Below, one piece after another: positions 3,501 through 18,643 of a stretch of DNA of 21,968 nt. Below the pieces are notes generated by a model. That model was not told where the DNA came from and did not search any database. It saw only the letters and a program-made list of their open reading frames with translations. Position numbers and translations under genes: made by a program. Origin of the DNA: a virus. The first letter of the stretch is position 1, and the number at the start of each line of letters is the position of its first letter. The DNA is taken from IMG/VR virus record IMGVR_UViG_3300017743_000157, positions 1 through 21,968 of that record, one strand, 5' to 3'.

Positions 3501-5837
3501 AACAAAGTTTTGTCGATTAGAAATTAAATTAGGTTTTAGTTTTAAAAATGCTTTTGCTGCTTGAACAACTTCATCTGGGGCATTAGTTTTTTCTACGAGT
3601 TGTTTAATTTTATTACGTACGTCATTAACTTCTTTAGTTTTAATTTCGGCCTCTTTGTTTTCCTCAGAAATAGTTTCTTGAGTACGTGTTATTATTGATT
3701 CACCTTCACCATAGTCCCATTCTTTTGGATTTTTTGCTAAAAATTCAGCTTCTTTTCGTGTTGTAGCTGTAACTAAACTTCCTGTTTTGTTATTTTCAAC
3801 ATAATAGTTCCCTTCGCCTTTTCTGGCAGCTATTCCATCAAATTCATATTCGAGTCCAGCTTTGCCTTTTCTGTTATCAATAACGTCAAAATCCTTTCTA
3901 GCTTCTTTAGGATCTTCAGGCAAGGTGTAAGTTATCTCCTCGGTCTCTGAAACTTCAGTAATATCTTCTTGATTGACGTTTAAACTTCTTTGTACGTCAG
4001 CTATAGCAGCAGCATTAAAAGGTGCCGTTGGCTCTTCCATTTTTCTTTTAGCCGCAATAAGAGTGGCTTCATCTGAATCTGGATTTGCTAAAGCTTTTTC
4101 AGCTGCTTCTGTTTCATTTATTCGAATACCTTCGACAGTTTTACTAGTTATGTTATTAACGAATTTATTCCTCTTAGTTTCGTCCTTGATTTTGTTTGCT
4201 AAAACCTTATCCTCGTCGCTTAATAATTCGAAGCGTTCAACATTATAATCTCTAACTGCATCACTTACTGGTGGTTTTTGATCTGAAACACTAACGTTTT
4301 CTATTTCAGACATTTGTTTCTTAATTTCAGCTTTTCTTATTTTAGCAGGCTCCGTCTTATTGTCTTTTAAGCCGTCTAATTCTACTTGAAGTTTAGTCAA
4401 AGCACTTACGGTTTCATTATTTAAATCAGGGCTTGCATCTCTTATTTGTTTTTCTGTTGAAAGTTTTACAATCCTATTTTGTAATTTGGTTGCCCTGCCC
4501 TCGTAATCGTTATTTATATCGATTTTAGTTTTTTGTAGTTGGTCGAGTGTCATTGTTTCTGTAAGCTCATCTATCTGATCAGCAGTAGCTTTCTTACCAT
4601 TTATCTTATATGATGGTGAACTAAACCTAGTGGATATAACATCTCTAAAACCCCCTGGTGTTTCTGCGAGACCCTCTAATATTACATCTGATATATCCAA
4701 TTCTTGATCAGCTGCCACAGATCCAGCAATCTCACCGACAGATCCACCTGCTCCTTCAATTCCAGCCGCTGCTGCAACCGCTTTGGTAGCCCCTTTTTTG
4801 GTCCCTGTTTTACTGAGTATTCTCCCTGCCACCTTACCACCAAGTCTTCCTGTAAAAGCATCCACTGCTCCTATAGCTAGTCCTCTAGCGACCGCTTTGT
4901 TTCTGATACTAGTAAACTTCTCAGGATCATTTAATATTTCTTTAATTTTTTGAGCATCTAATTTCTCACCCTCTGCCTCCTCAGTTAACAATTCAGCAAA
5001 TGTTGCCCCCATCTCTAGCGTTGTTCCAGCTGCTGCAAAAGCATAAGGCACAGCAGCTGCTGCCCCTGTGATGGCTCCTGCTGCCGCTCCTCCAACAGTC
5101 CCTATTACTGGTAAAGCTACTGTCCCTGCACTTGCGCCTGTAGCAGCACCTATTCCAGCTCCCGTTCCTAATGCAGTTGCTCCTGCGACAAGAGAGTCTG
5201 TATTTGTAGCCATAGAAGTTAATGAACTTAAAACTAATTCGGGTACTACCGTCAAGCCAGATTTTAGAAGACCAAGAACCACACCCATAAAAGATTTGTC
5301 ATTCTCTTCGTATATTTTCATATACTCTTGCATCTCTTTTGATGCGCCGTAGGTTTCTCTGTTTTTGTTAGACTCAATAAAACTAGCAATATCTTCTTCC
5401 GTTGATAACGATCCTCGTAAAAGTAAGTCAGATGCATCTTCAGAAGCAACACCTTGATAATATCCCGATGCTACACTTCGGGCCATGTCATCTATAAAAT
5501 CTCCTATTCCTGTTTGAGTTACATTGTCAAAACCTCTTAGTACATCTCCAAAGGTTCCTTCAAAGTAGTCTTGCTCAGTAGGTTCAGGTCTTTGTGAGGC
5601 CGAAGAACCAGCCCCAGAACTTGAATCCAAAACGGATCCGTCTTTTTTTTTTAACCCAGTGTTGTTTAGCCACGTAGATAAATCACTATCAGTGTATTTT
5701 TTTTCAATTAAGTAAGAGTGAATATTTTGTTGTACCTCTGGGCTTTGAGCGTTTACCTTCCATTCCTCAAAAGAACTTTTGGTCATTCCATCTGAGCTTA
5801 ACTGATCCCAAATATTTTTTAATATTTCGTCGTTCAT
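525..5837 (-). CDS. Giant internal/ejected virion protein (1770 aa)
   Basis: This is probably a very large internal virion protein that leaves the capsid with the DNA, comparable in size and position to T7 gp16 or the cargo proteins of crAss-like phages. Residues 1-80 form a small charged domain ending in GLKKKDG, then a Ser/Gly linker. Residues about 180-275 are a long Gly/Ala-rich hydrophobic stretch (LVAGATALGTGAGIGAATGA and onward) able to insert in membranes. A second Gly/Ala patch lies near 350-370. Residues about 430-850 are Lys/Glu-rich and probably helical or disordered. A folded C-terminal region (about 1250-1690) contains PTQYVKQLVPFVNTAVNLVG and VFFPFANFLLNQKTRMYADL. The last 50 residues are very basic, ending RPRFSKKDPSRFSGKRPTRF. 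I saw no lytic-transglycosylase signature. The start overlaps the 627-aa gene's stop as TAATG. The ejection role is inferred from context and composition. Confidence 0.65.
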   Translation of the reverse strand: MNDEILKNIWDQLSSDGMTKSSFEEWKVNAQSPEVQQNIHSYLIEKKYTDSDLSTWLNNTGLKKKDGSVLDSSSGAGSSASQRPEPTEQDYFEGTFGDVLRGFDNVTQTGIGDFIDDMARSVASGYYQGVASEDASDLLLRGSLSTEEDIASFIESNKNRETYGASKEMQEYMKIYEENDKSFMGVVLGLLKSGLTVVPELVLSSLTSMATNTDSLVAGATALGTGAGIGAATGASAGTVALPVIGTVGGAAAGAITGAAAAVPYAFAAAGTTLEMGATFAELLTEEAEGEKLDAQKIKEILNDPEKFTSIRNKAVARGLAIGAVDAFTGRLGGKVAGRILSKTGTKKGATKAVAAAAGIEGAGGSVGEIAGSVAADQELDISDVILEGLAETPGGFRDVISTRFSSPSYKINGKKATADQIDELTETMTLDQLQKTKIDINNDYEGRATKLQNRIVKLSTEKQIRDASPDLNNETVSALTKLQVELDGLKDNKTEPAKIRKAEIKKQMSEIENVSVSDQKPPVSDAVRDYNVERFELLSDEDKVLANKIKDETKRNKFVNNITSKTVEGIRINETEAAEKALANPDSDEATLIAAKRKMEEPTAPFNAAAIADVQRSLNVNQEDITEVSETEEITYTLPEDPKEARKDFDVIDNRKGKAGLEYEFDGIAARKGEGNYYVENNKTGSLVTATTRKEAEFLAKNPKEWDYGEGESIITRTQETISEENKEAEIKTKEVNDVRNKIKQLVEKTNAPDEVVQAAKAFLKLKPNLISNRQNFVDNANLIIKGLTPTKTGPKGEVYTTEALDIVQSDSYTSNEKTIQEAEQKKIDEKAFADLTGLSPEEFTLDQMRRILYESKENNLSPEEKLKLKETKKTIIAQGLKNAFNKYAAVVDDMVNKGVDPFSKNKEKITLSENDKKILKEFLDVDISLLSEDTAIRALDSMVNFATNQSVGGMLEVASIAKGKKEAKKMEGKIEAKPLKFLLGGKTLGNIWNKYIATIPLTIENMFKSQETARNFERDSGFLGIRNGVAKGEKVSRDIFQAYYDKFIQPSNLIKSIRRGATKTMPNGKRFTDVENDTERGLFAFMRRTVDGTEIEQIEEFKRRKGLVEQSIVELRNDGQSVKADYYQNAYDKLLKDSNTIDEVDSKTDPINKEAVEWMTNEWTKARPELENVSLSIYNRTLGKDISYTPDSFITLENVTTEPALGEPLFQPENEYIYDEETGVLKPKTPSYKLPMNPEGTTNRYVNLGFDSNNSNNLRSAYADIYTAASIRQLQGFITSPSFEKIVPNKSDRDLLIDRFKFYVEAKRGIQKGQEKWLKSLNKFAGLGVSRVLGGPTQYVKQLVPFVNTAVNLVGNPMAVYEGIKLMTTNKDAVQWLDNSGVEIANRGVQSVTNLEGTDSRLETDSEGKLGRVADVINNAQNAWLKGFLVNPDRFAARSSFMAYYLDSLKKQGIDSANIDWSTHESNQEALSYATQQTARQQNTSDVDLQGKLFSGKDPVSQVARKVFFPFANFLLNQKTRMYADLGSVFSKSNTSQDKIQAGKSLTGLVAETAAFNALGLFITQSLAAIARELRGTEEDDEQLDKQFKSRIKGRSGQTFTDIVSPIPLLNPTTLEGVNSLVRTFEEDEPFQFFVNNPEGLVDRLGVLGIGLQKARAVLEMVTLGTTGEYTDRFGNKKEIDPQYKEDILAQAPIYTFYLLGLLPLEVGSIIDYNMRAYKKTKVKKQNTKTSTVKEKKEKKTKKSKLRPRFSKKDPSRFSGKRPTRFNN

Positions 5838-7720
5838 TAGCCCATGTTTTTTGTTTGAACTTTACCTTTTTTTGATATCAAAAAGGTCCTTATGTATTTT
5901 CTTAATTTTTCTGTTTCATCTTGTGCATAGCTTCTAGTAAAAAAATCTGCATCTAACAACAATGGATCAGCATTATATCCGGGTATCCTAATTATCAAAC
6001 CGTCATTGCTAGGGTTTACGGTGCTAATAGCTTCTGCGTCAATATCTAAATCCTTAAATATAGTATTAATTTGTTCTGCAACTTCTGTATCTTCATCCTC
6101 TAAATCAATCCCTTTGTCCGATGGTGTTGGCCTTGTAGATTGTAAGTTATCAGTAGAGAACATTTCATTTAAATATTTATCAATCTCAACTATAAAGTCA
6201 CTATTGTCTTCTTCTCCTTCTGCTTTATCCACCTTCACTTCAGATACAATATCTTCAGTGCTAGTTAGATTTCTATTAAATTTCGGGGTGTCATCCTCAT
6301 TTTTGATGTTAGTACGGTCATTTACTCCTTGTCCAATTAAAAGTTGAGAAGCAGAATTTATAAACTGTGCTTCAGATTTTTGTCTTCCTTTTACACGTTT
6401 TGGATTAGCATCGGACTCCTCCTTGCTAGAATCAAAATTTGGATTAGGAACCAAAGTGTCCGAGGTTTCATCAGCCACATAGAAAGAAATTGGCCTAGTC
6501 TGTGTATCTCCGTTTTCATCTATAAAAGTAACCGATATACCACTGTTGTTTCTGGTTACTCTTTGGATATTAGTATTACCACCGATGTCTCGATAATAAT
6601 CTACTGCGGCATTTATATCTTCTTGAGTACCTCCATATAGTGAAGCAATGACTTCAATTTGGGTATCTAGCGCTTCTTGTTTATCTAAATCTCCTTTTAA
6701 AAATTCTTTTATGCGTTGATTAAGAGTTCCCCTCTGTATTCGTACTCTTTCTTTAGATAATTTTAAGTCAGATTTTTCTTTTTCTGTTAAATCTGGACGT
6801 TCTTTTTCCTCTAAAGGCAATGCATTTTTAAGAGCGTCTCTCATAAACACTTCTGCTTTCTCTTTATCTCCTTCAGCAAAAGCAAAAGTGCCATCTGGCT
6901 TTCTATATACATTCCCTGGTTTTAATTCATCTTCATTATAAACCACATCATACCCCATACCATCAACTAATATTGATACAGTCGGGGCTTGAGAACCAGC
7001 TAGTAAAGCTTTGGCTTCTTTTAGCATTAACTCATCTAATTTTCCAGGATCCATGTTTGCATATACACCTTTAATAGTGTTCCCTGCAGCATCTGTAATA
7101 CCTCTCTCTCCAAATTGTTTAGCTAATGTAGAAGCAATAGTACTATAGTCATACTTAGGTAAGTTTCCATTAGTAAGATTACTTAAATATGAGGGACTAA
7201 CCACATCGTTAGTTTCTTTATTAAAAAGCTTTAAACCGCCCCTGCCATCTGGCTCAACCTCCATAGCCCCTGGCTGAAACACTTTGTTGAAATGATTTAA
7301 GTCCGCAGTATTAACAGCACTAGACTTGCCGCTAGCTACATCGTCTGCTATTTGTTGTGCTCTCTCTTGGTATGAGGTTTGAGCAGCAATCATCTGCTCG
7401 TTGGTTTGGTTTAAGTTCCTCCATTGTGCAGAATAATCACTTGAATTAATTTGACCTGTTTCTAATTGTTTTTGTAATCTAATCGATTCATCCATTATGC
7501 CTTGGCTAAACTTACCGAAGAATTGATTAGCATTTTGATTTGCAGTAGGAGTAAGTTCATCTTGAGTTTTTCTTAATGTATCTTGTTCATCCCTCCATGC
7601 TTGTCTTTGTGTTTCCCTATCTTTTTCTTGATTTAAAAGTGTGTTAGATAAATCAATTAATGAAGAAGTATCCGCAATGACGGGCTTATCTTGTAACTTA
7701 AATCCTATTTTAGTTGCCAT
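5837..7720 (-). CDS. Putative internal virion (cargo) protein, 627 aa
   Basis: This is the middle member of the trio between the small Ala/Gln-rich protein and the giant protein, the position held by gp15 among T7 gp14-gp15-gp16. The N-terminal 150 residues are Gln/Asn/Glu-rich and probably helical (NTLLNQEKDRETQRQAWRDE). The centre (about 240-420) has mixed alpha/beta character. Residues about 430-560 are acidic and low-complexity (VDKAEGEEDNSDFIVEIDKY). The end is basic (KLRKYIRTFLISKKGKVQTK). There is no signal peptide or clear membrane helix. It starts three bases after the 267-aa gene and its TAA shares one base with the next ATG, so the three are probably made in fixed ratio. No enzyme motif was seen. 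Its family is inferred from order and composition rather than direct recognition. Confidence 0.6.
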   Translation of the reverse strand: MATKIGFKLQDKPVIADTSSLIDLSNTLLNQEKDRETQRQAWRDEQDTLRKTQDELTPTANQNANQFFGKFSQGIMDESIRLQKQLETGQINSSDYSAQWRNLNQTNEQMIAAQTSYQERAQQIADDVASGKSSAVNTADLNHFNKVFQPGAMEVEPDGRGGLKLFNKETNDVVSPSYLSNLTNGNLPKYDYSTIASTLAKQFGERGITDAAGNTIKGVYANMDPGKLDELMLKEAKALLAGSQAPTVSILVDGMGYDVVYNEDELKPGNVYRKPDGTFAFAEGDKEKAEVFMRDALKNALPLEEKERPDLTEKEKSDLKLSKERVRIQRGTLNQRIKEFLKGDLDKQEALDTQIEVIASLYGGTQEDINAAVDYYRDIGGNTNIQRVTRNNSGISVTFIDENGDTQTRPISFYVADETSDTLVPNPNFDSSKEESDANPKRVKGRQKSEAQFINSASQLLIGQGVNDRTNIKNEDDTPKFNRNLTSTEDIVSEVKVDKAEGEEDNSDFIVEIDKYLNEMFSTDNLQSTRPTPSDKGIDLEDEDTEVAEQINTIFKDLDIDAEAISTVNPSNDGLIIRIPGYNADPLLLDADFFTRSYAQDETEKLRKYIRTFLISKKGKVQTKNMG

Positions 7721-7723
7721 ATC

Positions 7724-8527
7724 TTAAGAAATTAATCTACCAGTTACTGCGTCATATTGTTGTTCCAACGGCGTGTTGTTAAATATTGGCATATTTACTG
7801 ATGCTGGAGAAAATATAGGATTTGTTACTCTAAATGTATCTGCTAAATTAACATTTTGACCAGCGTCATTTGTAAAAAAACGTGACACTTCTTGACCTTG
7901 AGGCATGCTAGGGGCATTGTTTGCAGATGGTAAATACTCTGGTATTTGTTGACCAGCTATGGCTCCCATCTGAGCTATTGACTTAAATGCTTGACCTTGA
8001 GCTGCTGCCCTATTAAGGGCCGCTTGCTGTGCAGCTGCTTGCTGACCTTCTACCTCCGCTACGTCTAAGCGTACTTTCATCCCCTGCAATCTCGCGTCTT
8101 CTGCTGCTGATGCTCGCTGCAAACCTTGTAATTCTTGACCCATAGCAGTTCTAGCTTGGGTTTGCTGTTGTTGGTTATAGATGGCTGCTCTGCCTGCTGT
8201 GGCTGCAGCTCCTCTTTGTTCCCCCTCTTGACCTGCTTGTACTATTTGCCCTAAGCCTGATAAGCCAGCTTCTCTAGCTAATTCATAAGGTTCTTTTTGA
8301 ATCGACAAACCTTTAAGATAATTTACTTCTAATTTTTTTCTTGCCGATTCTAAAGCTTTGTCAGCTGCATCTTCAGCCTCTGCTTGAGCCTTTTTTTGTT
8401 TTGATGCTTGTGATAAATTTATTGCGGTTCCAGCAGCTGATGCTGCAAAAGCTGCTCCTGACGCAATTGTACCAGCTGTTATTGCCGCTGTTCCTAATCC
8501 TATTGCTGTCCCTGTTATTATTGCCAT
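7724..8527 (-). CDS. Small internal virion protein, T7 gp14-like architecture
   Basis: Residues 1-35 are a hydrophobic Ala/Gly/Ile/Thr segment (ITGTAIGLGTAAITAGTIAS...) that can span or insert in a membrane. From about 40 to 195 follows a long Ala/Gln/Glu-rich helical region (KKAQAEAEDAADKALESARK, then many AAxQ units), and the last 70 residues are Pro/Asn-rich. A hydrophobic N-terminus followed by a long amphipathic helix is typical of small ejected proteins such as T7 gp14, which forms the outer-membrane part of the ejection channel. It starts one base after the GNAT gene's stop (TAA T ATG) and ends three bases before the 627-aa gene. Low sequence complexity limits certainty about homology. 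Confidence 0.6.
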   Translation of the reverse strand: MAIITGTAIGLGTAAITAGTIASGAAFAASAAGTAINLSQASKQKKAQAEAEDAADKALESARKKLEVNYLKGLSIQKEPYELAREAGLSGLGQIVQAGQEGEQRGAAATAGRAAIYNQQQQTQARTAMGQELQGLQRASAAEDARLQGMKVRLDVAEVEGQQAAAQQAALNRAAAQGQAFKSIAQMGAIAGQQIPEYLPSANNAPSMPQGQEVSRFFTNDAGQNVNLADTFRVTNPIFSPASVNMPIFNNTPLEQQYDAVTGRLIS

Positions 8528-8528
8528 A

Positions 8529-8939
8529 TTAAAATGCTTTAATCATTTCTTGTGTGTATGTATCGCCCTTTATATAACCTAGATTCTCGTATGTTTTTAC
8601 TAGACCGTCATGTTTTATAAGAGCATATGTATATTTATTTCCGTTGTTTTTACATGTATTTGTAAGTGATTCAACAAGCAGACCTACAGCTCTGTGCTTG
8701 GCTTTTTTATTGTCGTAATTCTTATTTGATATAATCCAGTCCACCCAGGCTACTTTTGAATTTGTTATATATATAAACCCTGCACATACAGGGATGTCAT
8801 CGTCTAATACTATTAAACCACCTTCACCGTCATCTGGCAAAAAATCTTTTGCCGGAGGCTCCCATCCCCAGTCTTTCCACCAACTAACAAGTATGTCTTC
8901 GTAGTCAGTAGAATTTAGTTTACGAATATTAAATTCCAT
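8529..8939 (-). CDS. GNAT-fold acetyltransferase-like protein
   Basis: The 136-aa length and layout fit a minimal GCN5-related N-acetyltransferase. It has an N-terminal strand and helix (EFNIRKLNSTDYEDILVSWW), a central pair of strands (GLIVLDD...IPVCAGFIYIT, residues 41-59), strand 4 (VAWVDWIISN, 63-72), then a helix, and a late strand and helix (YTYALIKHDGLVKTYENLGY, 103-122), where ENLGY is the usual GNAT end motif. The acetyl-CoA pyrophosphate loop (normally Q/R-x-x-G-x-G/A) is only loosely kept as KAKHRAVG (79-86), so activity is uncertain. I recall close relatives sitting among structural genes of environmental Bacteroidota phages. The substrate is unknown; a virion protein or a host target are possible. 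A TATCTTTG box lies seven bases upstream of the ATG. Confidence 0.65.
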   Translation of the reverse strand: MEFNIRKLNSTDYEDILVSWWKDWGWEPPAKDFLPDDGEGGLIVLDDDIPVCAGFIYITNSKVAWVDWIISNKNYDNKKAKHRAVGLLVESLTNTCKNNGNKYTYALIKHDGLVKTYENLGYIKGDTYTQEMIKAF

Positions 8940-8946
8940 ACTCTAA

Positions 8947-8954
8947 CAAAGATA
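8947..8954 (-). promoter_or_regulatory. Bacteroidota -7 element TATCTTTG before the GNAT gene
   Basis: The minus strand reads TATCTTTG, matching the Bacteroidota sigma-ABfr -7 consensus TAnnTTTG, in the 22-base gap before the GNAT gene. I see no TTG at the expected -33 distance. Only seven bases separate it from the ATG, so a transcript from here would be almost leaderless. The identical 8-mer lies before the 236-aa and 91-aa genes. Confidence 0.4.
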
Positions 8955-8961
8955 CTAATTT

Positions 8962-9783
8962 TTAAGGATCACTTTTCATTATCTGCGCTTGCACCGCAAA
9001 GAGCTCCGCTCTAGCAGGACCAATGTTTTCAAATGTCATCAAGGAATAATGTCCAAGTATTCCATGTGACTCTGCTATTAAGTTTTTTAACGCCATCATC
9101 AAAGGCGTATTTGTAGTTGGATTAGTAGCCCCAGGTATAGTACTGTCAACAGTTATCGACGTAGCGTTCTTAGAGGTAATTACACCCGCAAGAGATGGTG
9201 AGTTTGTGAACTCATTAAGATAATACAAATAGTCTCCTATACTTATAATTGAATCGATGGCAACCGTAAAAGTAAACACCCTTGGATTTGTCATTGTAAA
9301 CCCTGTGGTATTGCCTATACCATTAACAGACCTCAAATCAAACTCACTTAATGTCGCTGGTGTTTGAGTCGTGTTTTTAATAGCCGCATAATAAGCACCC
9401 TCCTTAAGTTCAAACCATGTGTTATTTATAAAAGCTTGGTTGTTCATGTCTGTGTTTAAACTGACACTCCAGGGTGAGTCAGACTCTAAGCTTACAGTTT
9501 TAAACAACTTATTATCTAAGGGCGCTTCATTAATAACAGTTGTTATTGAGCAGTTATATTGCACACCATAGAAATTATTTCTTGCGTTATTAGTGTTATG
9601 TCTAAATATATTACCACCTGAAAAAGTATAAAAGTAATTGTTCATACCTACCATATAATCAGGGTTGTATGAATAAAAAGAAGGCCACCCTTGCACTCCA
9701 TTGCTATATGTTAATGTAAACAATTCACCAGATGGTATTTGTGGCGTAGCTACGGGATTGGGTGATGAGGGTATTTGTGCCAA
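8962..9783 (-). CDS. Conserved phage virion/tail-appendage protein (GWPSFYSYNPDYMVGMNNYF type)
   Basis: This 273-aa protein has the recognisable stretch GWPSFYSYNPDYMVGMNNYF, then FRHNTNNARNNFYGVQY, and ends with ENIGPARAELFAVQAQIMKS. I recall this pattern from structural proteins of environmental and crAss-like Bacteroidota phages, where it is probably part of the tail or an appendage, but no enzymatic role is known. It looks all-beta, with no signal peptide. The start is TTG (9781-9783) followed by GCA. There is no in-frame ATG before Met44, which would delete the P/S-rich N-terminus (IPSSPNPVATPQIPSGE), and an in-frame stop lies a few codons upstream. A TATATTTG box is 21 bases before this TTG, which supports it. 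It follows the Pro/Thr-tailed 174-aa gene. Confidence 0.65.
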   Translation of the reverse strand: MAQIPSSPNPVATPQIPSGELFTLTYSNGVQGWPSFYSYNPDYMVGMNNYFYTFSGGNIFRHNTNNARNNFYGVQYNCSITTVINEAPLDNKLFKTVSLESDSPWSVSLNTDMNNQAFINNTWFELKEGAYYAAIKNTTQTPATLSEFDLRSVNGIGNTTGFTMTNPRVFTFTVAIDSIISIGDYLYYLNEFTNSPSLAGVITSKNATSITVDSTIPGATNPTTNTPLMMALKNLIAESHGILGHYSLMTFENIGPARAELFAVQAQIMKSDP

Positions 9784-9791
9784 GACAATTA

Positions 9792-9805
9792 GTTTTAATT
9801 AAAAC
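9792..9805. other. 14-bp perfect palindrome GTTTTAATTAAAAC
   Basis: This self-complementary 14-mer touches the downstream edge of the TATATTTG box and covers the expected transcription start of the 273-aa gene. It could be an operator or only an AT-rich coincidence. Confidence 0.3.
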
Positions 9806-9835
9806 AAATATACAATAATTTTGTTTTTGCTTTAA
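9805..9835 (-). promoter_or_regulatory. Putative Bacteroidota promoter for the 273-aa appendage gene
   Basis: The minus strand has TATATTTG (9805-9812, TAnnTTTG). At the ideal 19-base spacing upstream stands TTTA (9832-9835) instead of TTTG, one mismatch to the -33 element. The distance from the -7 box to the TTG start is 21 bases. The same TATATTTG 8-mer forms the -7 element of the glycosyltransferase promoter. Confidence 0.45.
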
Positions 9836-10356
9836 ACCACTGGTGTTGCAGTCGGAGTTGGTGTAGGTGGTATAGGTGTTGGCGTGGGCGTGAGGGTCGG
9901 TACAAACGTAGGTGTAGGCGTAGGTGTAATAGCCGTACCTCCAATACATATTTGACCAGCTCCTTTCGTTCTACCTTGAGTGTCCTCTATGTATAATTGA
10001 AATGTTAGTATGGTATACTCTCCGCTAACTAAAGGAGAAGTAGGATTGGGTGGGGAATAAGCAGTGGTTGGACTGACACTTGATGCAGGAGCTATCAAGC
10101 TCTGTGGATAAAATCGTACTATCTCATTACCTAAAGAATCTAAAATAGCACCTGTTGCCACAACTAACCCTGGGCCACTAAGCCAAATGCTTTGAATTGA
10201 TGGAGTCAAACCAGCGGTCAAGACTAAATTATTTGGCACATTTATAATCTCTTGATTGGCAATATCATAGGTTACGCCATCCATTCCCCGATAAGTATTT
10301 ACAGGTGGTGATGTAGTACCAGTTCTAACTTGGGCTGAACAACTTAAATAACTCAT
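9832..10356 (-). CDS. Putative appendage protein with C-terminal Pro/Thr stalk (174 aa)
   Basis: I do not recognise the family. Residues 1-140 look beta-rich and contain no signal peptide or catalytic motif (IVRFYPQSLIAPASSVSPTT; EYTILTFQLYIEDTQGRTKG). The last 31 residues (144-174) are almost pure Thr/Pro in TP steps (TPTPTPTFVPTLTPTPTPIP and on), a mucin-like extended stalk of the kind often heavily O-glycosylated. The gene lies between a glycosyltransferase upstream and the 273-aa appendage protein downstream. That, and its composition, suggest a surface-exposed virion protein, perhaps glycosylated by its neighbour; this is inference. It has its own TAnnTTTG box 17 bases before the ATG. 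Frames crossing the repeat on the same or opposite strand look like shadows. Confidence 0.6.
   Translation of the reverse strand: MSYLSCSAQVRTGTTSPPVNTYRGMDGVTYDIANQEIINVPNNLVLTAGLTPSIQSIWLSGPGLVVATGAILDSLGNEIVRFYPQSLIAPASSVSPTTAYSPPNPTSPLVSGEYTILTFQLYIEDTQGRTKGAGQICIGGTAITPTPTPTFVPTLTPTPTPIPPTPTPTATPVV
9835..9927 (-). repeat. Degenerate Pro/Thr-coding minisatellite
   Basis: This stretch is built from degenerate six-base units encoding Thr-Pro. On the plus strand they appear as ggtgta, ggtgtt and ggcgtg variants. It codes for the final 31 residues of the 174-aa protein. Such repeats can expand or contract by slippage, so stalk length may vary between related phages. Confidence 0.7.
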
Positions 10357-10373
10357 GCTTTTTAATTATAATA

Positions 10374-10405
10374 CAAATTTACAATTTTATTTTATGCACT
10401 TACAA
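10374..10405 (-). promoter_or_regulatory. Putative Bacteroidota promoter for the Pro/Thr-stalk gene
   Basis: The minus strand has TAAATTTG (10374-10381) as a -7 element, with TTG (10403-10405) 21 bases upstream, within the 17-23 range known for flavobacterial promoters (TTG-N17-23-TAnnTTTG). It overlaps the end of the glycosyltransferase gene and lies 17 bases before the ATG. Confidence 0.5.
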
Positions 10406-11623
10406 TATGATAGATTCTATTCTATCTACCCATCCCTTTGACTTACTGTAGGGCCATACAATATATTTGTGTGGCGTCTTACCTATAAACTCGCTGTCAA
10501 TTTCTATAGCGTCTTTATATTTCCAAGTGCTTGCTTCTTTTTCCTGCAAGTCTTTTCTGTTTATAAGCACTCCATTTTCATCCTCATATATTATAGCCAC
10601 AAATGAATAGTCATCACAAGACAACTGACTTTTGTTAAGCTGTATCTTATATCTAAATAAACTAAGAAAAGGATCTTGATTGTTACCTGGGTTTTTATTA
10701 TCTAAAGCTGACTGCTGAACTGTTCTGTTTTTGAATTTTATACCTGCGTAATTTTCATATTGTTCCAAAGTACGCACGGGTCCAAAGTCATATCCCTTCA
10801 GTGCCTTTTTAGCACATGATGTGCATTGCTGATTGTCCACTTGTAATAATGACCGAACTCTATTTTGAGAAGACTCATCTCTTTTGCTCCATTCTGTATG
10901 ATCATCCCAATGCTTGTCTCTGCCTTGCCTAGTGTATTCATGCCAAGCTATTATCTTATGTGGATGAAATAAATCATAACCCCAAGTATAGGCCCTTACA
11001 GCTATACTAATTTCTTCACCGTGAAAATATAAATAAGGATCGTGGGGAACTTCTCTACATATTTCACCAATGGTAAACGCAAAATGTCCTGAATAGAACC
11101 TCGCTGGTATAGGCTCAGTTGCGTTATCCTCCATATAGTGAGGCTTAAAAAACAACATACCTTTAGGGGTAAACCTGTCAAATACCATGCTCCATGGCAC
11201 ATCTTCTTTGTCCTCATTTTCTGTATCTGGTAGATAGGAGGGCAAGTAAGAAGTAATTAGCGGCCTTGTAACGCCTTTCTTTCTCAAAGAAAAAAACATG
11301 TCTATACAATCAGCGTCCCAGTCTTTTATAAACCGGTGGTGTGAATCTAAATGTAATGTAAACATTTGATTTGTGTAGTGCCTTTGTATTTGATGACGAG
11401 CCCAACAAGTTCCCTGAGCTTCTGTGTGGGGTATGTCTATTATTATAAACCTTGAATCATTTTTAAAGTCATTAAGGTTATCCCACTCATCCTCTGTGCT
11501 ATGCTGATGAGCTACGCATATGGTTAGCTGCTCAGGGTATTTAGCATTGTTTAATAGATTGTGTAGAGTTGGTACTAATTCAGGATCACGATAGCTAGCT
11601 ATCTGAACAAATATAGAATACAT
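10400..11623 (-). CDS. GT60-type (Skp1 GlcNAc-transferase-like) glycosyltransferase
   Basis: This 407-aa protein has the hallmarks of the GlcNAc-transferase family (CAZy GT60, Pfam GlcNAc). The start is IFVQIASYRDPELVPTL (4-20). GTCWARHQIQRHY (71-83) precedes the metal/donor motif LDSHHRFIKDWD (92-103), where D93-x-H95 takes the place of DxD. Later come HGEEISIAVRAYTWGYDLFH, HWDDHTEW (about 237), and a CTSC pair (about 266-269) before KGYDFGPVRTLEQYENYAGI, which matches the conserved family tail. Known members transfer GlcNAc from UDP-GlcNAc to hydroxyproline (Dictyostelium Skp1) or Thr (Trypanosoma cruzi mucins). It is intracellular with no membrane helix. The catalytic module looks complete. 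Located between two probable appendage genes and driven by its own promoter, it most likely modifies a virion protein; host-glycan or defence-related roles remain possible. Confidence 0.85.
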   Translation of the reverse strand: MYSIFVQIASYRDPELVPTLHNLLNNAKYPEQLTICVAHQHSTEDEWDNLNDFKNDSRFIIIDIPHTEAQGTCWARHQIQRHYTNQMFTLHLDSHHRFIKDWDADCIDMFFSLRKKGVTRPLITSYLPSYLPDTENEDKEDVPWSMVFDRFTPKGMLFFKPHYMEDNATEPIPARFYSGHFAFTIGEICREVPHDPYLYFHGEEISIAVRAYTWGYDLFHPHKIIAWHEYTRQGRDKHWDDHTEWSKRDESSQNRVRSLLQVDNQQCTSCAKKALKGYDFGPVRTLEQYENYAGIKFKNRTVQQSALDNKNPGNNQDPFLSLFRYKIQLNKSQLSCDDYSFVAIIYEDENGVLINRKDLQEKEASTWKYKDAIEIDSEFIGKTPHKYIVWPYSKSKGWVDRIESIIL

Positions 11624-11642: not shown

Positions 11643-11673
11643 CAAATATAATAAATATTAACTCTTTCTCAAA
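11643..11673 (-). promoter_or_regulatory. Near-consensus Bacteroidota promoter for the GT60 gene
   Basis: The minus strand reads TTTG (11670-11673), 19 bases, then TATATTTG (11643-11650). This is an exact fit to the Bacteroidota consensus TTTG-N19-TAnnTTTG. The -33 element overlaps the TGA stop of the upstream 436-aa gene, and the ATG lies 19 bases after the -7 box. It is the best promoter in the window and direct support for a Bacteroidota host. Confidence 0.75.
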
Positions 11674-12979
11674 CGTAACCGCCACATGCTTGACAGTCAT
11701 TACCTTGATAAGCTATTAAAGTAACCGTAGCGGTTGAACTACTTGAATATGCAGCGATTGAAGATCCTGGCAAAGAGTCTTGAATTTGCCAACATGCTCC
11801 TTGATCATCAGTATATACGCTACCCGTTCCATTAATATTATACTGTAAACTACCAGCTGCAAATAAAGGATTGTTTGCAGGCAGACTAGAAATACCTTTT
11901 CTTCCTCCAAAAGTGCTTCCAAATTGAGGGTTACATTCTCTTAATTGAAAATAGGTGTCGCCAGGACATCCAACAACTCGTGATTGAAAACCTGGTTGTC
12001 CTTCCATAATACCAGTGGCATCTGGGTATTGTATAGTCGTAAATTCTGTTTTTCCTGACAATTGATTAGCTTGTAGTATACCTTCTTGAGTATAAAACGT
12101 AGATCCCCCGTCTGGCGTTACTCTAGTGGAGTTTCTCCATTGAGTATTATAAGGTATCTGCATATAGTAATCAGTGGATCCATCTAAACATTTTTTAAGT
12201 TGGACAATATCACCAGTTATTACATTAAATGTTGGACATCCTGTTTCTCCTTCTATTTTTGACAACACTAAGCCAGTGCCCCCTCTTTGTTCTAAGAAGT
12301 CAGCTTGTGAGGGGTTTGATTTTGCGGTTATTGCTGGGTCATAATAATAATACTGAGTTGGCTCCACATTGACAGCTGCAAATCTTTGATTTGGAGTGGG
12401 CTTGTTTGCCAATGTTCTACTTATAAGGCCAGAGGATGGCGATTCTCCATTGTTTCCTTGACAAGCGGTTAACACATAATTTAGAGTACCTGCTCCCGAA
12501 GGAATTATTTCTATCGTTCCTGTTAATGTATTTGTTACTGTAGTTCCGCCAACGGGTATTGATCCCGCTGGATTTGTTGCAGAAAAAGGAGAGGCTGAAC
12601 TAAACTGTTTGCCTTGAACTACAGATGGAACTATGTCAAACTGATATTCGTCATTTACTTCACCTGTTTGAGTTACAGGACCCGCTGGGTCATTCCCGTC
12701 ATATCCTGTGCCTGATAAAGTATAGTCAACATTTAATGTACCCACTATATTATTAGTCACATTTTGTGTTACGTTATAAGTAGTAGGCGCCGCAGGGGTA
12801 CTTCCAGAACAATCTGGACAAGTTATGGAAGCGCCTAATGCACCACTTAATTGTTGACGAGTAATGTTTTGATCAGAATAGTATCCGTCTACAGCTAAAA
12901 CAGTTAATGCACTATCAGTATAAACAGCAGTTGCTTCTGATAAAGTGGGTGCGTCGATAAATAAAGCTAATTGTGACAT
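11669..12979 (-). CDS. Putative tail fibre / appendage protein (436 aa)
   Basis: The N-terminus (LALFIDAPTLSEATAVYTDS ... LAVDGYYSDQNITRQQLSG, residues 4-45) is a small module I recall from Bacteroidota phage and host surface proteins (x-Y-T-D-x-x-L-x-x-x-A-x-D-G-Y-Y-S-D). It is followed by a CPDC pair (54, 57), a Thr/Gly/Asn-rich beta region (60-190), and a C-terminal half with scattered Cys, ending in NDCQACGGYV. Composition and position directly after the tail-hub gene suggest a fibre or other tail appendage. There is no signal peptide or enzyme motif. The ATG is 11 bases after the 1521-aa gene's stop with no promoter box between, so it is probably co-transcribed. This is one of few genes here ending in TGA. 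Receptor binding is possible but unproven. Confidence 0.6.
   Translation of the reverse strand: MSQLALFIDAPTLSEATAVYTDSALTVLAVDGYYSDQNITRQQLSGALGASITCPDCSGSTPAAPTTYNVTQNVTNNIVGTLNVDYTLSGTGYDGNDPAGPVTQTGEVNDEYQFDIVPSVVQGKQFSSASPFSATNPAGSIPVGGTTVTNTLTGTIEIIPSGAGTLNYVLTACQGNNGESPSSGLISRTLANKPTPNQRFAAVNVEPTQYYYYDPAITAKSNPSQADFLEQRGGTGLVLSKIEGETGCPTFNVITGDIVQLKKCLDGSTDYYMQIPYNTQWRNSTRVTPDGGSTFYTQEGILQANQLSGKTEFTTIQYPDATGIMEGQPGFQSRVVGCPGDTYFQLRECNPQFGSTFGGRKGISSLPANNPLFAAGSLQYNINGTGSVYTDDQGACWQIQDSLPGSSIAAYSSSSTATVTLIAYQGNDCQACGGYV
12700..12717. repeat. 18-bp exact repeat, copy 1
   Basis: CATATCCTGTGCCTGATA occurs here and at 20089-20106 in the same orientation. In both places the minus strand encodes Ser-Gly-Thr-Gly-Tyr inside otherwise unrelated proteins. 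It could be chance, codon convergence or a trace of recombination. Confidence 0.45.
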
Positions 12980-12990
12980 TTTTTAATATT

Positions 12991-15900
12991 TTATGTTGGG
13001 CATGTTACTTCTACTATGTAACCCGTGTCTTCTAACGGCCCATAAACCTCTATTTGACAAGATGTAGTAGCTGTATTTTTTGCAAAAGTATACTCAAGAA
13101 TCTTCATTCTAGATTTGTCTATAAAACCTCCATTGGCTACTGTCGGAAGTGGCGCTGTACCATTGGGCTCGTAAGCATTACCTGAGACTGGCTCTACATA
13201 AGGACTTCCCGTATTAGGGTCAGTGCCTGATAATTCAGCATGTAAGTTGGAAATCATCCCAGTGTCTCCTTGATATTGACTGTCTATAACAGTAACCCCA
13301 TCAAACTTCACAATCATTCTATCTGGCACATTTTCAGCATTAAACTTAACAGTAACAGTTCCAGTGCTACTGCCTAAATCAATATTACGTCTATCCGGAT
13401 AATTAACTCCTCCTGTATATCCAACATTTTCATTACATGGGGTAGTTGGCGCTGGAGGTGCACATGAACAGCAAGAGTTAAACTCTGCTAACGCTCCAAA
13501 GTCTGTAGTGTTTTGACAAAGAGTTATTGCTGTTATTGTTCTATAGTCCCAAATTAAATATAAATTATTATCTGCCGCGGTCATAGTTGGCATTGTAAAG
13601 TTGGCATAATTTGAACTAGCCGTAGTTACAATAGGTGTGGCTTCGCTAGATGCTGCAACTAATGCATTTATGTCTGCCGTCGTATTGCTATACACAGTAG
13701 AGCTTCTTAAAAACCTTAATTTATTACTGATAACATCAAAGTCAAAAGTGTCTGAACTAAACTTATTGCTTATAATTGAAACTAAAGCACCTTCATCAGG
13801 CACTGTATTAGATCCTAAAGCACCCTGCAAAGTGTAATACTGAGACACCACTGGGTTTGCTCCGCTAGCAAAGGTTACTAAATTAGACTCTAGCGGTGAA
13901 CTAGAAACATTATCAGTCCATCTATATTCATTGTGAATGGTTTTAAGGGCGTCTCCGTTATTTGTTAGGGCTATGTTATAAACCGTTATTAAATTTTGTT
14001 CTGGACAGCTTACAGTAACCTCTGCACTATCAGCAACACTAGCATTTGTAGTAGCCTCGATTGTGACCTCTGATTCGCTAATACTATTTTTAGCAACCGT
14101 AAAACTTCCACTCACAAAGACTAAGCCACTTGTATATTTAACACCATTATAATATGCGTTAAAGGTATACCCAACTCCTGTGTTGGTATCTTCAGTTACG
14201 ATTGGAGAGATTCCCGCTTCAGTTTCCATTATTTGCAAACCAGCTCCTGTAGGTGTGTTTACCTCTGTAATAATATCGTCATCTGATGCATCAGGTATAA
14301 TATAACTAACAGTAACTTGACCAACGTCTTGCCCTACATCAACACAATATATATTTCTTTTACCTGGTTCTAGAACTAAATTCTCTGCTATGCCACATGC
14401 TAAACATAATCTAAAGTCAAATGTGTTTTGAAGATTGCCCGCTAATACAAATTCGTTTGTATAAGGGTCATAACCTCCTAGCTTTTGAGTACCTAAAGAG
14501 TTAATAAAGAAGTCTCTAAACCAGCCCCTCATACCTCTTTCAGATATTACAGAAAGCTCTTCTTGACCACTTGATCCGCCTCTTAATCTAAGTACAGCTC
14601 CGCGTTTTGAGTCAACAAAATATTTATCATATCCCCATACGGCAAAACTTTCTGGATTATTACTTATACCATACTCTTCATCTCTTGCTATCTGAATACC
14701 TAGCACTTGAGGTACGCTTGTAAGAGCTCCGCCTCCACCTGCATCTGTTAAAAGATCTTTGCCAACGGGCACATAAGATATTCTATCTTCTTGTAAAGTA
14801 AGAATGTCGGTACGTCTTGAATATAGTTTTCTTATTGGACCAAATGAATCTTCTAAGGGACTAAAGTTAGCCAAGCCTAGGTTAAATTCATTTAGTTTAT
14901 TTATGTTACTTTCATCATTAAAAACACCACTGTATGTTAAATCTGAAAATCTGTGAGCCTCTTTGTATATCTGAGAGGATGTTGTAGTTGTTCTATTGCC
15001 AAAAGTTAACCCCTTGCCTGTGATAGAGTCTCTGATTTTATAGCTTTCTATACCATCTCCAAAGGCTATACAGTTTGAGAATCCTGTGTCTACAATAGCA
15101 TCTTGCGCAACTATTAGCCCTGAGTTATCAATATCTATAATTTGATTTTGAATACTACCTAAATGCTCCCCGAATGAATTAATTCCAAAAGATTTATCAT
15201 TTTCAAACCATACATCTGGCAATGCATCTAAAGGTTGTGTTTCAAATACCACTGATGATGATGCTCTAGTTACCTCAATTTCAACATCAAGCCTTGAATC
15301 TCCTCTTGAGGGACATTCTCGTCCACCTGATATTCCTAAAAACGTTTCGCCTGTTGCTGTGTTTTCAATAAATCTAAAGTAAAAGAACTCTTCTAACTGA
15401 GGTAAATCACTGTTAACAGGATTCCTAGTAAGCTGCAATGTGGTATTGTCATACTGAATATTAGTTCCAGTATCAAAATCTACAGCTTCTTGTGCTTCGC
15501 CTAGTCTGAAAACAGAATTTCTTTGTATAACACCTGTTGTAAGAACACCTAAAGCCTCGCCGTCAAAAAATGCTTTAAAGTTTGCAAACGTCGCGCTTGC
15601 TGTGATTTCTTGCTCATATATCCATACTTCCCTAGGACAATTTTTGTTTGATGTACCACCAGGTCTAACAGATTTAATAGATATTTTTACTGTACTGTTT
15701 TCTGGAATACTGTAATCCATGTTTGCAGTTGCACCCGTACCCGCTGGATTGGGGATAGTAACAGGATAAAATACCTTTGGATAGTCATTGTTCTTTACAT
15801 CTCCATCACCGATATTTCCATATGTAATATATGGATTTGTAAAAGTAGATACTACAAAGTTTGTAGGTATCATCTTCATATAAGTGCCTGGAGGCGCTTC

Positions 15901-17556
15901 AATAGTTTGTGTCGCATCTAATGGATTTTGATAAGATATAAATCCTTTTAACTGCGTTGTTTTTTCTAAGACCACCGCTGTTGCGCACTGTGATAATGCG
16001 CCTGATGTATCTTTTTTGACTATTAATCTATCGCCCTCTTCTACCTTATTAGCATTCTCACCTTCAAGCAAAAAGTATATGGGCGCAGTATTATCTTCTT
16101 TTACAAAATTAGATACGTAAATCGTGTCATATGTAGACTTACTTGACTTAATACAAAACTTATATCTTGTTGCCCAATATGGAGCGTGTTGCGCAGGAGC
16201 TCCTCCTGCTTGTCCACCCGGTATATTTACTGTAATGCTATTGGTAAAAACAGAATTTTTACAAGAAACATGAGTGGTATTAAATGGACCTACTAATGCT
16301 GTTGATGACCTATTAAAATCATCCATATAGATAATTCCAATTTCATAATCTCTGTTGCTGTGAAGACTGTAATTATTGTTAGTAGTTCTTAAAAAAGATT
16401 CAGCACTTAGGATTTGAAAGTATTCAAAAGACGTGTTAGCTCCATCTACCCACTTCATAGCAACTAATTGTAATCCAATACTAGTTGAATTTGGTGTAGA
16501 ATAAATGGTAAAACCTTGTGTAGCTCCAGTAATTCCGCTTTCGGTTTTTACAAATGCTCCTAATTGCGCAGGTATTGAACAATTAAACGCGTCTGTAAAT
16601 GTAAAGCCATTGCATGAATTAGGTACCGTCTGTATATTAGTCGATGTTCCAATGCTGTTAATAAAATGAGGGTCAGCAGCTAAATCAAAAGGTGTCGCAT
16701 AGTCTTCAAGTAAAGTGTAAGAAAACCCTATTTCTGTAACCGGAGTAAGAGAAGTTGGTGCTGTTCCACTAGAGGTGTAAAAAGATAAATGAGTAAAATT
16801 TACTAACCAAGATATAACAGAACCTTTTGTTAATGGTAAAGTGCTTAAGTCAATATAAAATATGGAATTGGTTATAGTCGCTGTTTGTCCGTATGTATAA
16901 TAACCATCTCCAATAGTTTCTATTAGACCTGTTTGGTTTATTTCATTAGATGAAAGATTTAAATTATAGGTAAAGTTTACTGCATTATTCTGTCTGTCTT
17001 TTAAATTATAACCCTCAAAATAATTACCATATACTAAGCGGTTGCCCATTAAAGTTTGCGCTTGTGCTTTTAAAGGAACATTGTCATATAGCCTAAGTAC
17101 CTCATACTCAGGTAAAACAGTAAATATTTTTTGGTCATCAAAAGTAAATGTAAAAGAATTATTATCTCCTAGTCCTTGCTCAGCCTTATTGATGGTCTCT
17201 ATAATTTTAATAGTAGGATCAGTCATGTCTTTAAACAACAACTGAATTGCAACCACTAAAGGACCACCAGTATCAAATGTAATTTGAACTACATTTGCTG
17301 TGTTTAACATTCCTTCGTTTAAGAAACTTGATTCACTAAACCGGTAAGCACCTGCTTCAAAAGCGGGCGGGCTAAACTGGGAGGTGGCTGAAAACTCTCC
17401 ATTTTGATATTCATAACGATAAGCAAAACAAATAAACCTGTCTTCTAAAAATACTGTGCCGTCAGCGACAGTTGAGGTTACAATTGTGGGCGCAGTTATT
17501 GGTGGTTTTTTTATAACTAATATACTCTCAGCACTAAATTGGTCTATATAAGCCAT
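12991..17556 (-). CDS. Tail-hub/muzzle-like protein, large C-terminal piece (1521 aa)
   Basis: The sequence resembles the main body of a large short-tail hub protein (P22 gp10 'stabilisation' / crAss 'muzzle'-like). Residues 1-24 (IDQFSAESILVIKKPPITAP) look like the middle of a longer family protein, followed by RFICFAYRYEYQNGEFSATS and PEYEVLRLYDNVPLKAQAQT (about 150-170). Near 980-1030 is a motif set I associate with these proteins: DSKRGAVLRLRGG, then MRGWFRDFF, then KLGGYDPYTNEFVLAG. The C-terminal 490 residues are Thr/Ser/Asn-rich beta domains with Cys clusters (CLAC, CCSC) and a PDRMIVKFDGVTVIDSQYQG module near the end. The ATG comes one base after the stop of the 361-aa gene in the +1 frame, so both pieces probably form one assembly. 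Family assignment is from memory of motif patterns. Confidence 0.7.
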   Translation of the reverse strand: MAYIDQFSAESILVIKKPPITAPTIVTSTVADGTVFLEDRFICFAYRYEYQNGEFSATSQFSPPAFEAGAYRFSESSFLNEGMLNTANVVQITFDTGGPLVVAIQLLFKDMTDPTIKIIETINKAEQGLGDNNSFTFTFDDQKIFTVLPEYEVLRLYDNVPLKAQAQTLMGNRLVYGNYFEGYNLKDRQNNAVNFTYNLNLSSNEINQTGLIETIGDGYYTYGQTATITNSIFYIDLSTLPLTKGSVISWLVNFTHLSFYTSSGTAPTSLTPVTEIGFSYTLLEDYATPFDLAADPHFINSIGTSTNIQTVPNSCNGFTFTDAFNCSIPAQLGAFVKTESGITGATQGFTIYSTPNSTSIGLQLVAMKWVDGANTSFEYFQILSAESFLRTTNNNYSLHSNRDYEIGIIYMDDFNRSSTALVGPFNTTHVSCKNSVFTNSITVNIPGGQAGGAPAQHAPYWATRYKFCIKSSKSTYDTIYVSNFVKEDNTAPIYFLLEGENANKVEEGDRLIVKKDTSGALSQCATAVVLEKTTQLKGFISYQNPLDATQTIEAPPGTYMKMIPTNFVVSTFTNPYITYGNIGDGDVKNNDYPKVFYPVTIPNPAGTGATANMDYSIPENSTVKISIKSVRPGGTSNKNCPREVWIYEQEITASATFANFKAFFDGEALGVLTTGVIQRNSVFRLGEAQEAVDFDTGTNIQYDNTTLQLTRNPVNSDLPQLEEFFYFRFIENTATGETFLGISGGRECPSRGDSRLDVEIEVTRASSSVVFETQPLDALPDVWFENDKSFGINSFGEHLGSIQNQIIDIDNSGLIVAQDAIVDTGFSNCIAFGDGIESYKIRDSITGKGLTFGNRTTTTSSQIYKEAHRFSDLTYSGVFNDESNINKLNEFNLGLANFSPLEDSFGPIRKLYSRRTDILTLQEDRISYVPVGKDLLTDAGGGGALTSVPQVLGIQIARDEEYGISNNPESFAVWGYDKYFVDSKRGAVLRLRGGSSGQEELSVISERGMRGWFRDFFINSLGTQKLGGYDPYTNEFVLAGNLQNTFDFRLCLACGIAENLVLEPGKRNIYCVDVGQDVGQVTVSYIIPDASDDDIITEVNTPTGAGLQIMETEAGISPIVTEDTNTGVGYTFNAYYNGVKYTSGLVFVSGSFTVAKNSISESEVTIEATTNASVADSAEVTVSCPEQNLITVYNIALTNNGDALKTIHNEYRWTDNVSSSPLESNLVTFASGANPVVSQYYTLQGALGSNTVPDEGALVSIISNKFSSDTFDFDVISNKLRFLRSSTVYSNTTADINALVAASSEATPIVTTASSNYANFTMPTMTAADNNLYLIWDYRTITAITLCQNTTDFGALAEFNSCCSCAPPAPTTPCNENVGYTGGVNYPDRRNIDLGSSTGTVTVKFNAENVPDRMIVKFDGVTVIDSQYQGDTGMISNLHAELSGTDPNTGSPYVEPVSGNAYEPNGTAPLPTVANGGFIDKSRMKILEYTFAKNTATTSCQIEVYGPLEDTGYIVEVTCPT

Positions 17557-17557
17557 A

Positions 17558-18643
17558 TTATATTTTTAAGGTATATGTAACGCCGTCCACTAATGTTATA
17601 CCTGTTAGAGATAATCCTCCTAATGATTCTGGATTTTGAGTAGCATTGCTTTCATCTACAAATTGAGCCGTTGGTGCATATTGACCAACAAACTTACCTG
17701 ATGACCCGTCGCTGCCTGTAATTTCACCTCTCATAATACCAGTGCCTGGATTACCGCCACCGCTTGACATTATCAGCGCAAAAGTTGCTGTTCCGTCGCT
17801 ATTAGTTACAAAATGTGTTAGTGCAAAACCAGAGGCAGTATTGGCACCTTGTATTCCAAAACCTTTGCTTGTAAGTGGAACATTAACTTGTGGGCCTGAT
17901 ACTCCAAAAACAACAACGGTTGGCGAATAGCAACCCGTCCCAGGCAAAGCTATTTGAGTTGTGGTTGGCGCTGCTCCTGCTCCTATAGCATTGGTGGGTG
18001 TAGGGCAACCCAATACAGTTCCTTGATGAAAACCTGTAGATATTATGCCTGCTTGAGTAACTGACCCCGCTGTAAATACAAATGCAGTTGTGGTACCAGT
18101 AGTTACAGTAGATACTATCGGCTCTCCATATGAATTTTTAATATTGATAAACCTAGGTGGATTTAAAAAATCTGTAAAAAACAGTAAGTCACTAACTTTA
18201 TTCGTGGCCGTAATTAAAAACTGTGGGTTAAAATTTAAGGTTGTATTTATTCCCGAACCATCATCAATACTAATTATGTGATACTTTAAAAAGCCCGTCA
18301 AGATATTTAGAGATACAATCATGTCTAGCTTACCAGTATCACCGATAGGACATTTCGGGTCATGCACAAACCAATATAATGTTTCGTTTGCTCCATCCTC
18401 ATACACACCTATTGTTCTAGCCTCACTACTAAGTGGCGTATTGGTTAGAGTTACGGGGTCTATAAAATATAATTGGGATAGCTGTGTGTTTCCTTTTGCA
18501 TTCTCTACTGATCCAACTTCTGACTCTTCGGTTGATCCTAATCTTAAGTTAACAGCATCGACATATTCTCCGTTAGGTAGCAGCCTTTCGTCAAGGCTTT
18601 TATTCATTCGCCCTAATACAAAATTTCTTTGTGTGTTTGCCAT
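17558..18643 (-). CDS. Tail-hub/stabilisation-like protein, N-terminal piece with extra domain (361 aa)
   Basis: Residues 1-176 match the N-terminus I recall for phage tail-hub/stabilisation proteins: RNFVLGRMNKSLDERLLPNG, EYVDAVNLRLGSTEESEVGS, a GKLDMIVSLN ... YHIISIDDG region, and FFTDFLNPPRFINIKNSYGE. Family members then normally continue directly into the IDQFxxExIxVI segment, which here begins the next gene. Instead, residues 177-361 are about 185 Gly/Thr/Ser-rich, beta-looking residues (APTTTQIALPGTGCYSPTVV; LGGLSLTGITLVDGVTYTLK). The stop is followed after one base by the ATG of the 1521-aa gene. It starts one base after the 304-aa gene's stop (TAA A ATG). No intein or nuclease motif was seen in the extra part. 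Homopolymer sequencing error is an alternative to a true split. Confidence 0.7.
   Translation of the reverse strand: MANTQRNFVLGRMNKSLDERLLPNGEYVDAVNLRLGSTEESEVGSVENAKGNTQLSQLYFIDPVTLTNTPLSSEARTIGVYEDGANETLYWFVHDPKCPIGDTGKLDMIVSLNILTGFLKYHIISIDDGSGINTTLNFNPQFLITATNKVSDLLFFTDFLNPPRFINIKNSYGEPIVSTVTTGTTTAFVFTAGSVTQAGIISTGFHQGTVLGCPTPTNAIGAGAAPTTTQIALPGTGCYSPTVVVFGVSGPQVNVPLTSKGFGIQGANTASGFALTHFVTNSDGTATFALIMSSGGGNPGTGIMRGEITGSDGSSGKFVGQYAPTAQFVDESNATQNPESLGGLSLTGITLVDGVTYTLKI

Follow-up and report, generated by a model that had tools for sequence, protein, structure and literature searches.

A GT60 glycosyltransferase beside a Pro/Thr-rich tail-tip stalk suggests virion O-glycosylation from an exchangeable enzyme slot in marine crassvirus-like phages

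Mucin-type glycosylation in animals is initiated by the ppGalNAc-transferases (family GT27), whose acceptors are Thr/Pro-rich, and in plants and algae extensin-type hydroxyproline O-glycosylation combines a prolyl 4-hydroxylase (P4H) with a hydroxyproline arabinosyltransferase (HPAT). Many phage-encoded glycosyltransferases (GTs) modify host surface glycans or lipids, and mycobacteriophages use GTs of their own to glycosylate capsid and tail proteins; the likeness to the present case lies in phage GTs decorating the phage's own structural proteins. To our knowledge those systems involve other GT types and targets, and we know of none with a Pro/Thr stalk, a prolyl hydroxylase or a swappable slot. 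Few cases of phage virion glycosylation are known, and the substrate is rarely identifiable. Two eukaryotic enzymes, TcOGNT-2 and Skp1 Gnt1, are members of family GT60. TcOGNT-2 of T. cruzi, with Dictyostelium Gnt2, places alpha-GlcNAc on mucin Thr (PMC3769586), and Skp1 Gnt1 places GlcNAc on a hydroxyproline made by the prolyl hydroxylase PHYa (PMC11570480). Virions of the Xanthomonas jumbo phage XacN1 are reported to contain at least two glycoproteins, with phage GTs suggested as their source (PMC5852040). Finally, the muzzle of PhicrAss001 (gp44) is a tail-tip assembly thought to touch the cell (PMC10172136).

The locus described here lies in an uncultured virus (IMG/VR record IMGVR_UViG_3300017743_000157, positions 1–21,968); the window, below, means this whole 21,968-bp stretch. 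Nearly all of its genes are on the minus strand, in the order 361-aa muzzle N-terminal part, 1521-aa main muzzle protein, 436-aa protein, 407-aa GT, and 174-aa, 273-aa and 136-aa proteins (Table 1). The module is identified as a muzzle because the crassvirus muzzle N- and C-terminal domains are both matched (PF25731 in the 361-aa and PF25729 in the 273-aa protein), because of gene order in relatives, and because of homology to phage structural proteins, namely those of Cellulophaga phage phi13:2 (including gp121, a 'structural protein' homologous to the 273-aa protein) and of Flavobacterium elemo phages. The same two domains link it to PhicrAss001 gp44, whereas the window muzzle is split over several genes, with adhesin-like proteins and the GT inserted before the C-terminal domain. 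We consider it probable (roughly 0.74) that the target of the GT60 enzyme is the phage's own tail-tip (muzzle-module) protein, whose Pro/Thr stalk it glycosylates. This is the best explanation of the homology, gene order, co-occurrence, tail selection and predicted fold, from which we infer catalysis, substrate, sugar and benefit. Two further features of the module layout were observed: the muzzle gene, two ORFs at 12991–18643 of the window, is a single 1600–1900-aa ORF in some relatives (e.g., L037, L041), and the 136-aa protein (8529–8939), a homologue of which in MW202828 is annotated as an N-terminal acetyltransferase, is encoded after muzzle-C in most relatives, stalked or stalkless.

Table 1. 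Features of the muzzle module and enzyme slot in the window (positions are those of the window)
Feature	Position	Strand	Basis
Muzzle N-terminal part, 361 aa	17558..18643	-	PF25731 E=2.7e-7; PHROG 14478 1e-24
Muzzle (tail-tip) main part, 1521 aa	12991..17556	-	Gene order and homology in relatives
436-aa protein upstream of enzyme slot	11669..12979	-	
TATATTTG promoter-like box before GT60 gene	11643..11650	-	Position, recurrence in relatives
GT60/PF11397 putative polypeptide O-glycosyltransferase, 407 aa	10400..11623	-	Pfam, PHROG, AlphaFold, fold search
DSHHRF motif, GT residues 93–98	11330..11347	-	Alignment of 25 homologues
Beta-strand-rich C-terminal accessory domain of GT, residues 319–405	10409..10669	-	Predicted structure
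TAAATTTG promoter-like box before 174-aa gene	10374..10381	-	Position, recurrence in relatives
174-aa protein: beta-sandwich N-domain and Thr/Pro tail	9832..10356	-	PHROG 38031, predicted structure, fused homologues
31-residue Thr/Pro tail, candidate glycan acceptor	9835..9927	-	Composition, conservation
TATATTTG box in gap between 174-aa and 273-aa halves	9805..9812	-	Invariant in nine split genomes (alignment)
273-aa protein: short Pro/Ser-rich linker end and crassvirus muzzle C-terminal domain	8962..9783	-	PF25729 E=1.3e-16; PHROG 38031

The initial annotation had proposed a GT60 enzyme with recognizable motifs and, on the adjacent gene, a Thr/Pro tail; both were confirmed. The 407-aa protein falls within GT60 by profile (PF11397, E=9.4e-75; 252.7 bits, where 21 is the cut-off) and matches a glycosyltransferase family in PHROG (24687, 2e-160). 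It thus shares a Pfam family with the eukaryotic GT60 enzymes, whose acceptors are Pro/Thr-rich or hydroxyproline, as is proposed here for phage stalks. The motifs YRDPE (residues 11–15), LDSHHRF (92–98), CTSC (267–270) and RTLEQY (284–289) were all located; D93, H95, R97, F98 and also H228 are invariant among 25 aligned homologues, and the DSHHRF segment is probably the metal/UDP-sugar site. In the AlphaFold model (pLDDT 91.7), the DxH-type motif expected of GT60 (D93/H95, n=25) sits within a GT-A-like fold matching polypeptide GTs. The closest PDB folds are ppGalNAc-transferases, which account for all of the best 41 matches (E down to 2e-12), with a whole-chain TM of only about 0.5. This likeness to the animal GT27 enzymes is one of fold and DxH-type motif; sequence and profile searches of the PDB gave no GT27 match to the window enzyme. 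Relative to eukaryotic GT60, the window enzyme belongs to a virus of bacteria, is encoded beside its presumed substrate, carries an additional beta-strand-rich C-terminal domain, and has a sugar and acceptor site that are predicted. A close-relative scan of genome contigs, of low sensitivity, found no bacterial source of GT60.

The last 31 residues of the 174-aa protein (TPTPTPTFVPTLTPTPTPIPPTPTPTATPVV) comprise 12 T and 12 P, a composition equalled in 0 of 20,000 shuffles of that protein. Other window proteins never exceed 5 T and 5 P per 31 residues, leaving the tail as the sole P/T-rich stretch. Among nine relatives, amino acid identity is 96% in the tail versus 68% in the N-domain, and pairwise differences between tail codons number 705 synonymous versus 46 non-synonymous; by this codon pattern, the Thr/Pro tail is under strong purifying selection. 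Slippage of a DNA repeat was ruled out as the origin of the tail, synonymous change being saturated and non-synonymous change rare. The N-domain is a predicted beta-sandwich (pLDDT 86.5) with no PDB fold relative below 1e-3, and for this reason we make no receptor-binding claim for it.

The TP tail might be a mere flexible spacer, the real substrate being another virion protein (the muzzle or the 436-aa protein) or another residue. Homologues of the 436-aa protein do carry their own P/T stalk just after a conserved N-domain of ~60 aa in many GT60 relatives, and the muzzle is stalked in some, as in the L021 homologue of the 1521-aa protein; substrates may thus be plural. This alternative is nonetheless unlikely for the window, where the 436-aa protein has no such stalk and the only P/T-rich stretch is the 174-aa tail, which GT60 always accompanies.

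The 174-aa and 273-aa proteins align to a single family, PHROG 38031 (460 positions), the former covering positions 11–167 and the latter 181–460. Relatives L015–L031 encode a single chain of 450–481 aa, whose P/T stretch forms the stalk joining the N-domain to the muzzle C-domain, and in the window and L002–L014 the two halves are separate genes. On these alignments, one ancestral stalked muzzle-module (tail-tip) protein has been divided into an upstream (174-aa) and a downstream (273-aa) half. Sequencing error and readthrough were ruled out as sources of the split, since it is kept in nine genomes, frames differ among genomes, some have ATG starts, and the box in the gap is invariant; readthrough in particular is unlikely because the frames of the two halves do not consistently match. 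Copies of TANNTTTG, which we take to be the Bacteroidetes -7 element, lie 25–29 nt upstream of the GT60, 174-aa and 273-aa starts, and recur in split relatives before the 174-aa (8/8), 273-aa (8/8) and GT60 (7/8) genes. Seven minus-strand copies in the window fall no more than 60 nt before one of 16 starts, versus 0.85 expected; over the whole window the motif is not enriched. The promoter-like box noted earlier before each gene is confirmed. That reading had missed that the two proteins form one split muzzle-module protein next to a variable enzyme slot. Its second candidate target, the N-terminus of the 273-aa protein, is indeed Ser/Pro-rich and represents the other extremity of the linker to which the 174-aa tail belongs.

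Co-occurrence of GT60-type enzymes with P/T stalks, suggested at the outset as a check, was surveyed in 117 non-identical IMG/VR relatives, including a few named phage records, drawn from two scans and having both muzzle and muzzle-C in view. A stalk was scored where 25 consecutive residues held at least 7 P and at least 7 S/T, and an enzyme where a sugar- or proline-modifying gene lay between muzzle and muzzle-C. Stalk and enzyme occurred together in 48 relatives, both were missing from 69, and only one of the two was found in 0, counts that near-copies swell and that use a stalk criterion picked after the first examples were seen. With a Pro-only rule, 0 of the 69 enzyme-less loci were stalked, and the GT without a Thr/Pro-rich partner, named beforehand as evidence against the pairing, was seen in 0 of 27 close relatives. 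On the muzzle-C tree, stalk and enzyme presence change three times each and coincide, amounting to only 2–3 independent events; phylogenetic proof is therefore limited, with significance out of reach. One relative within the GT60 clade (L160) has no GT60 and no full stalk, only a 23-residue linker.

The content of the slot varies. In the type that includes the window it holds GT60 alone, with extras in some relatives: GT32 (L021, L024, L030), an FkbM methyltransferase (L030) or HtrL_YibB (L151, L154). In a second branch a P4H-like 2OG oxygenase is always present, accompanied by GT60 (L107, L113, L121); radical SAM and GT60 (L108, L112, L122); O-FucT, GT60 and an epimerase (L094–L099, L116); O-FucT and a carbamoyltransferase (L057, L065, L082); an HPAT-like protein (L085, L092, L100, L105, L114, L132); or a GT32-like protein (L120). 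Searches with two of the P4Hs retrieved solved P4Hs at E about 2e-25 and, with weaker E, human P4HA2 and the Chlamydomonas enzyme. The oxygenase of L082, a shorter protein with no Pfam match, was grouped by similarity; several other cluster members (e.g., L132 8487–9317, without a Pfam match) are named solely by similarity to a cluster-mate. Pairs of P4H-like and HPAT-like proteins beside P/S/T stalks (L085/L092, L100, L105) recall the extensin system of plants and algae, although HPAT is matched only weakly in the phages (PF23452, E=1.3e-5, just above the cut-off) and the window has no HPAT-like protein. Searches of cultured phages for this cassette type gave no match to the L122 GT60 or the L085 HPAT-like protein, and phage P4H-like matches were partial only. 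In L107 (5573–6988), L113 and L121, a 471-aa protein fuses a GT60 domain to a weak Gly_transf_sug (GT32-like) match, perhaps as a bifunctional chain-extending enzyme. In L108 (8214–9116), L112 and L122, a radical SAM/SPASM enzyme lies between P4H and GT60.

There are 18 cassette changes on the tree, with the stalk retained throughout. Direct evidence that cassettes swap comes from L122 and L132, which have near-identical muzzle-C domains yet carry P4H, radical SAM and GT60 (L122:6417–9356) and P4H and HPAT-like genes (L132:7321–9317), respectively, a natural cassette swap. This bears on whether stalk and enzyme are simply co-inherited passengers of one exchangeable adhesin module, with no enzyme–substrate relation. 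Adjacency favours joint transfer, and the 2–3 switches on the tree are compatible with it; however, the stalk persists when the enzyme beside it is exchanged, individual tail residues are strongly conserved, and the unrelated XacN1/RAS14 lineage described below shows the same association without adjacency. We therefore give co-inheritance as passengers little likelihood. A similarly small chance attaches to a GT that modifies host surface glycans or lipids, for superinfection exclusion or receptor masking, a common role for phage GTs and one in which the GT32, O-FucT and NDP-sugar enzymes of sister cassettes could also act. Against it, both the family and the predicted fold point to a polypeptide O-glycosyltransferase, the slot sits inside the late tail-tip module, enzyme presence matches stalk presence exactly, and the neighbouring prolyl hydroxylases make sense only with a protein substrate.

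Under the favoured reading, stalk glycosylation, GT60 would be a phage-encoded cytoplasmic polypeptide O-glycosyltransferase that modifies stalk threonines during virion assembly with a sugar, probably HexNAc donated by host UDP-HexNAc. The stalk would link the beta-sandwich N-domain to the muzzle C-terminal domain, divided in the window's clade between the stalk-tailed 174-aa protein and the 273-aa muzzle-C protein, and sugars on it would make this otherwise disordered segment stiffer and better protected and would alter the surface that faces the host. In sister phages, the prolyl-4-hydroxylase in the slot suggests a hydroxyproline acceptor. No P4H (PF13640) was detected in 26 contigs of the GT60-only type, all of them partial, and the Skp1-type combination of P4H then GT60 is thus not found in the window's type; it is found in sister phages (e.g., L107, L113, L121, L122), which match the Skp1 PHYa–Gnt1 pathway in both enzyme types. 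Thr makes up 0.42 of non-Pro stalk residues in GT60-only phages versus 0.22–0.27 in P4H phages. Because GT60-only phages show no P4H and have Thr-richer stalks, the window enzyme more likely acts on Thr, and a hydroxyproline acceptor is possible in the sister branch.

A broader scheme, which we put forward tentatively and at somewhat less than even odds, is that marine crassvirus-like phages use a swappable post-translational cassette to build different O-glycans on Pro-rich tail-tip stalks. In phages with GT60 only, the window included, sugar would be added straight to Thr; in others, prolines would first be hydroxylated and then glycosylated by GT60, an HPAT-like enzyme or O-FucT. Further elaboration would fall to GT32, FkbM methyltransferase, radical SAM or carbamoyltransferase, and recombination would exchange the glycan type while stalk and muzzle anchor are retained. 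Cassette swapping suggests selection for a changed sugar coat, perhaps to reach receptors, resist proteases or evade defences at the host surface. Phage virion glycosylation is already known; the stalk-coupled, exchangeable hydroxylase/glycosyltransferase cassette appears to be new, and no report of it was found among titles and abstracts of the open-licence literature on phage prolyl hydroxylase with glycosyltransferase or on crAss-like phage glycosylation. Enzyme and presumed substrate adjoin in dozens of marine phages, and since that substrate is the neighbouring tail-tip stalk, the function is directly testable. Hydroxyproline O-glycosylation is known mainly from eukaryotes, and cassettes of P4H with GT60 or HPAT-like enzymes would be its unexpected equivalent in viruses of bacteria; the swappable cassette, if the scheme is true, would be a counterpart there of mucin and extensin coats.

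The association recurs in GT60-bearing jumbo phages, where the GT60 gene is not adjacent to the stalk genes. TPTPTP coding motifs number 29 in XacN1 and 19 in RAS14, versus 0 in six DNA-polymerase relatives without GT60. In XacN1 (AP018399.1), more than 20 long T/S-P stalks occur in at least 12 proteins (ORFs 174, 180, 190, 232–236, 325, 350, 372 and 384). The XacN1 GT (ORF334) is a GT60 enzyme 39% identical to that of the window, in a genome likewise rich in TP stalks and with reported virion glycoproteins; in contrast to the window, XacN1 is a myovirus whose GT stands apart from any stalk gene and has a carbamoyltransferase neighbour. The accessible part of the XacN1 paper does not mention the stalks or link them to a GT (PMC5852040). 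Together with the 48/69/0 co-occurrence and a fold near polypeptide O-glycosyltransferases, the XacN1/RAS14 pairing supports the enzyme family, neighbour and substrate class first proposed for the locus. The XacN1 GT60 gene is near DNA polymerase and RNase H genes, as might suit a GT acting on phage DNA bases (hypermodification), but fold and family indicate a protein acceptor and glycoproteins have been seen in XacN1 virions (PMC5852040), making a DNA substrate very improbable.

In a reverse test, GT60 was found in 6 of 50 viral contigs coding TPTPTPTPTP (and P4H in 5 of 50), versus 0 of 50 with an unrelated control repeat (Fisher p=0.027 for GT60). The other 44 TP-repeat contigs, many of them fragments, have no GT60, and most of the 50 have neither GT60 nor P4H; TP stalks can exist without GT60, and the pairing is not universal. 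In L005, a distant fragment of 26 kb, GT60 is present but TPTPTP motifs are absent; its region 866–10379 is dense in glycosyltransferase-like and sugar genes and encodes, besides GT60, a pilin-like protein with a DUF1559-type N-terminus.
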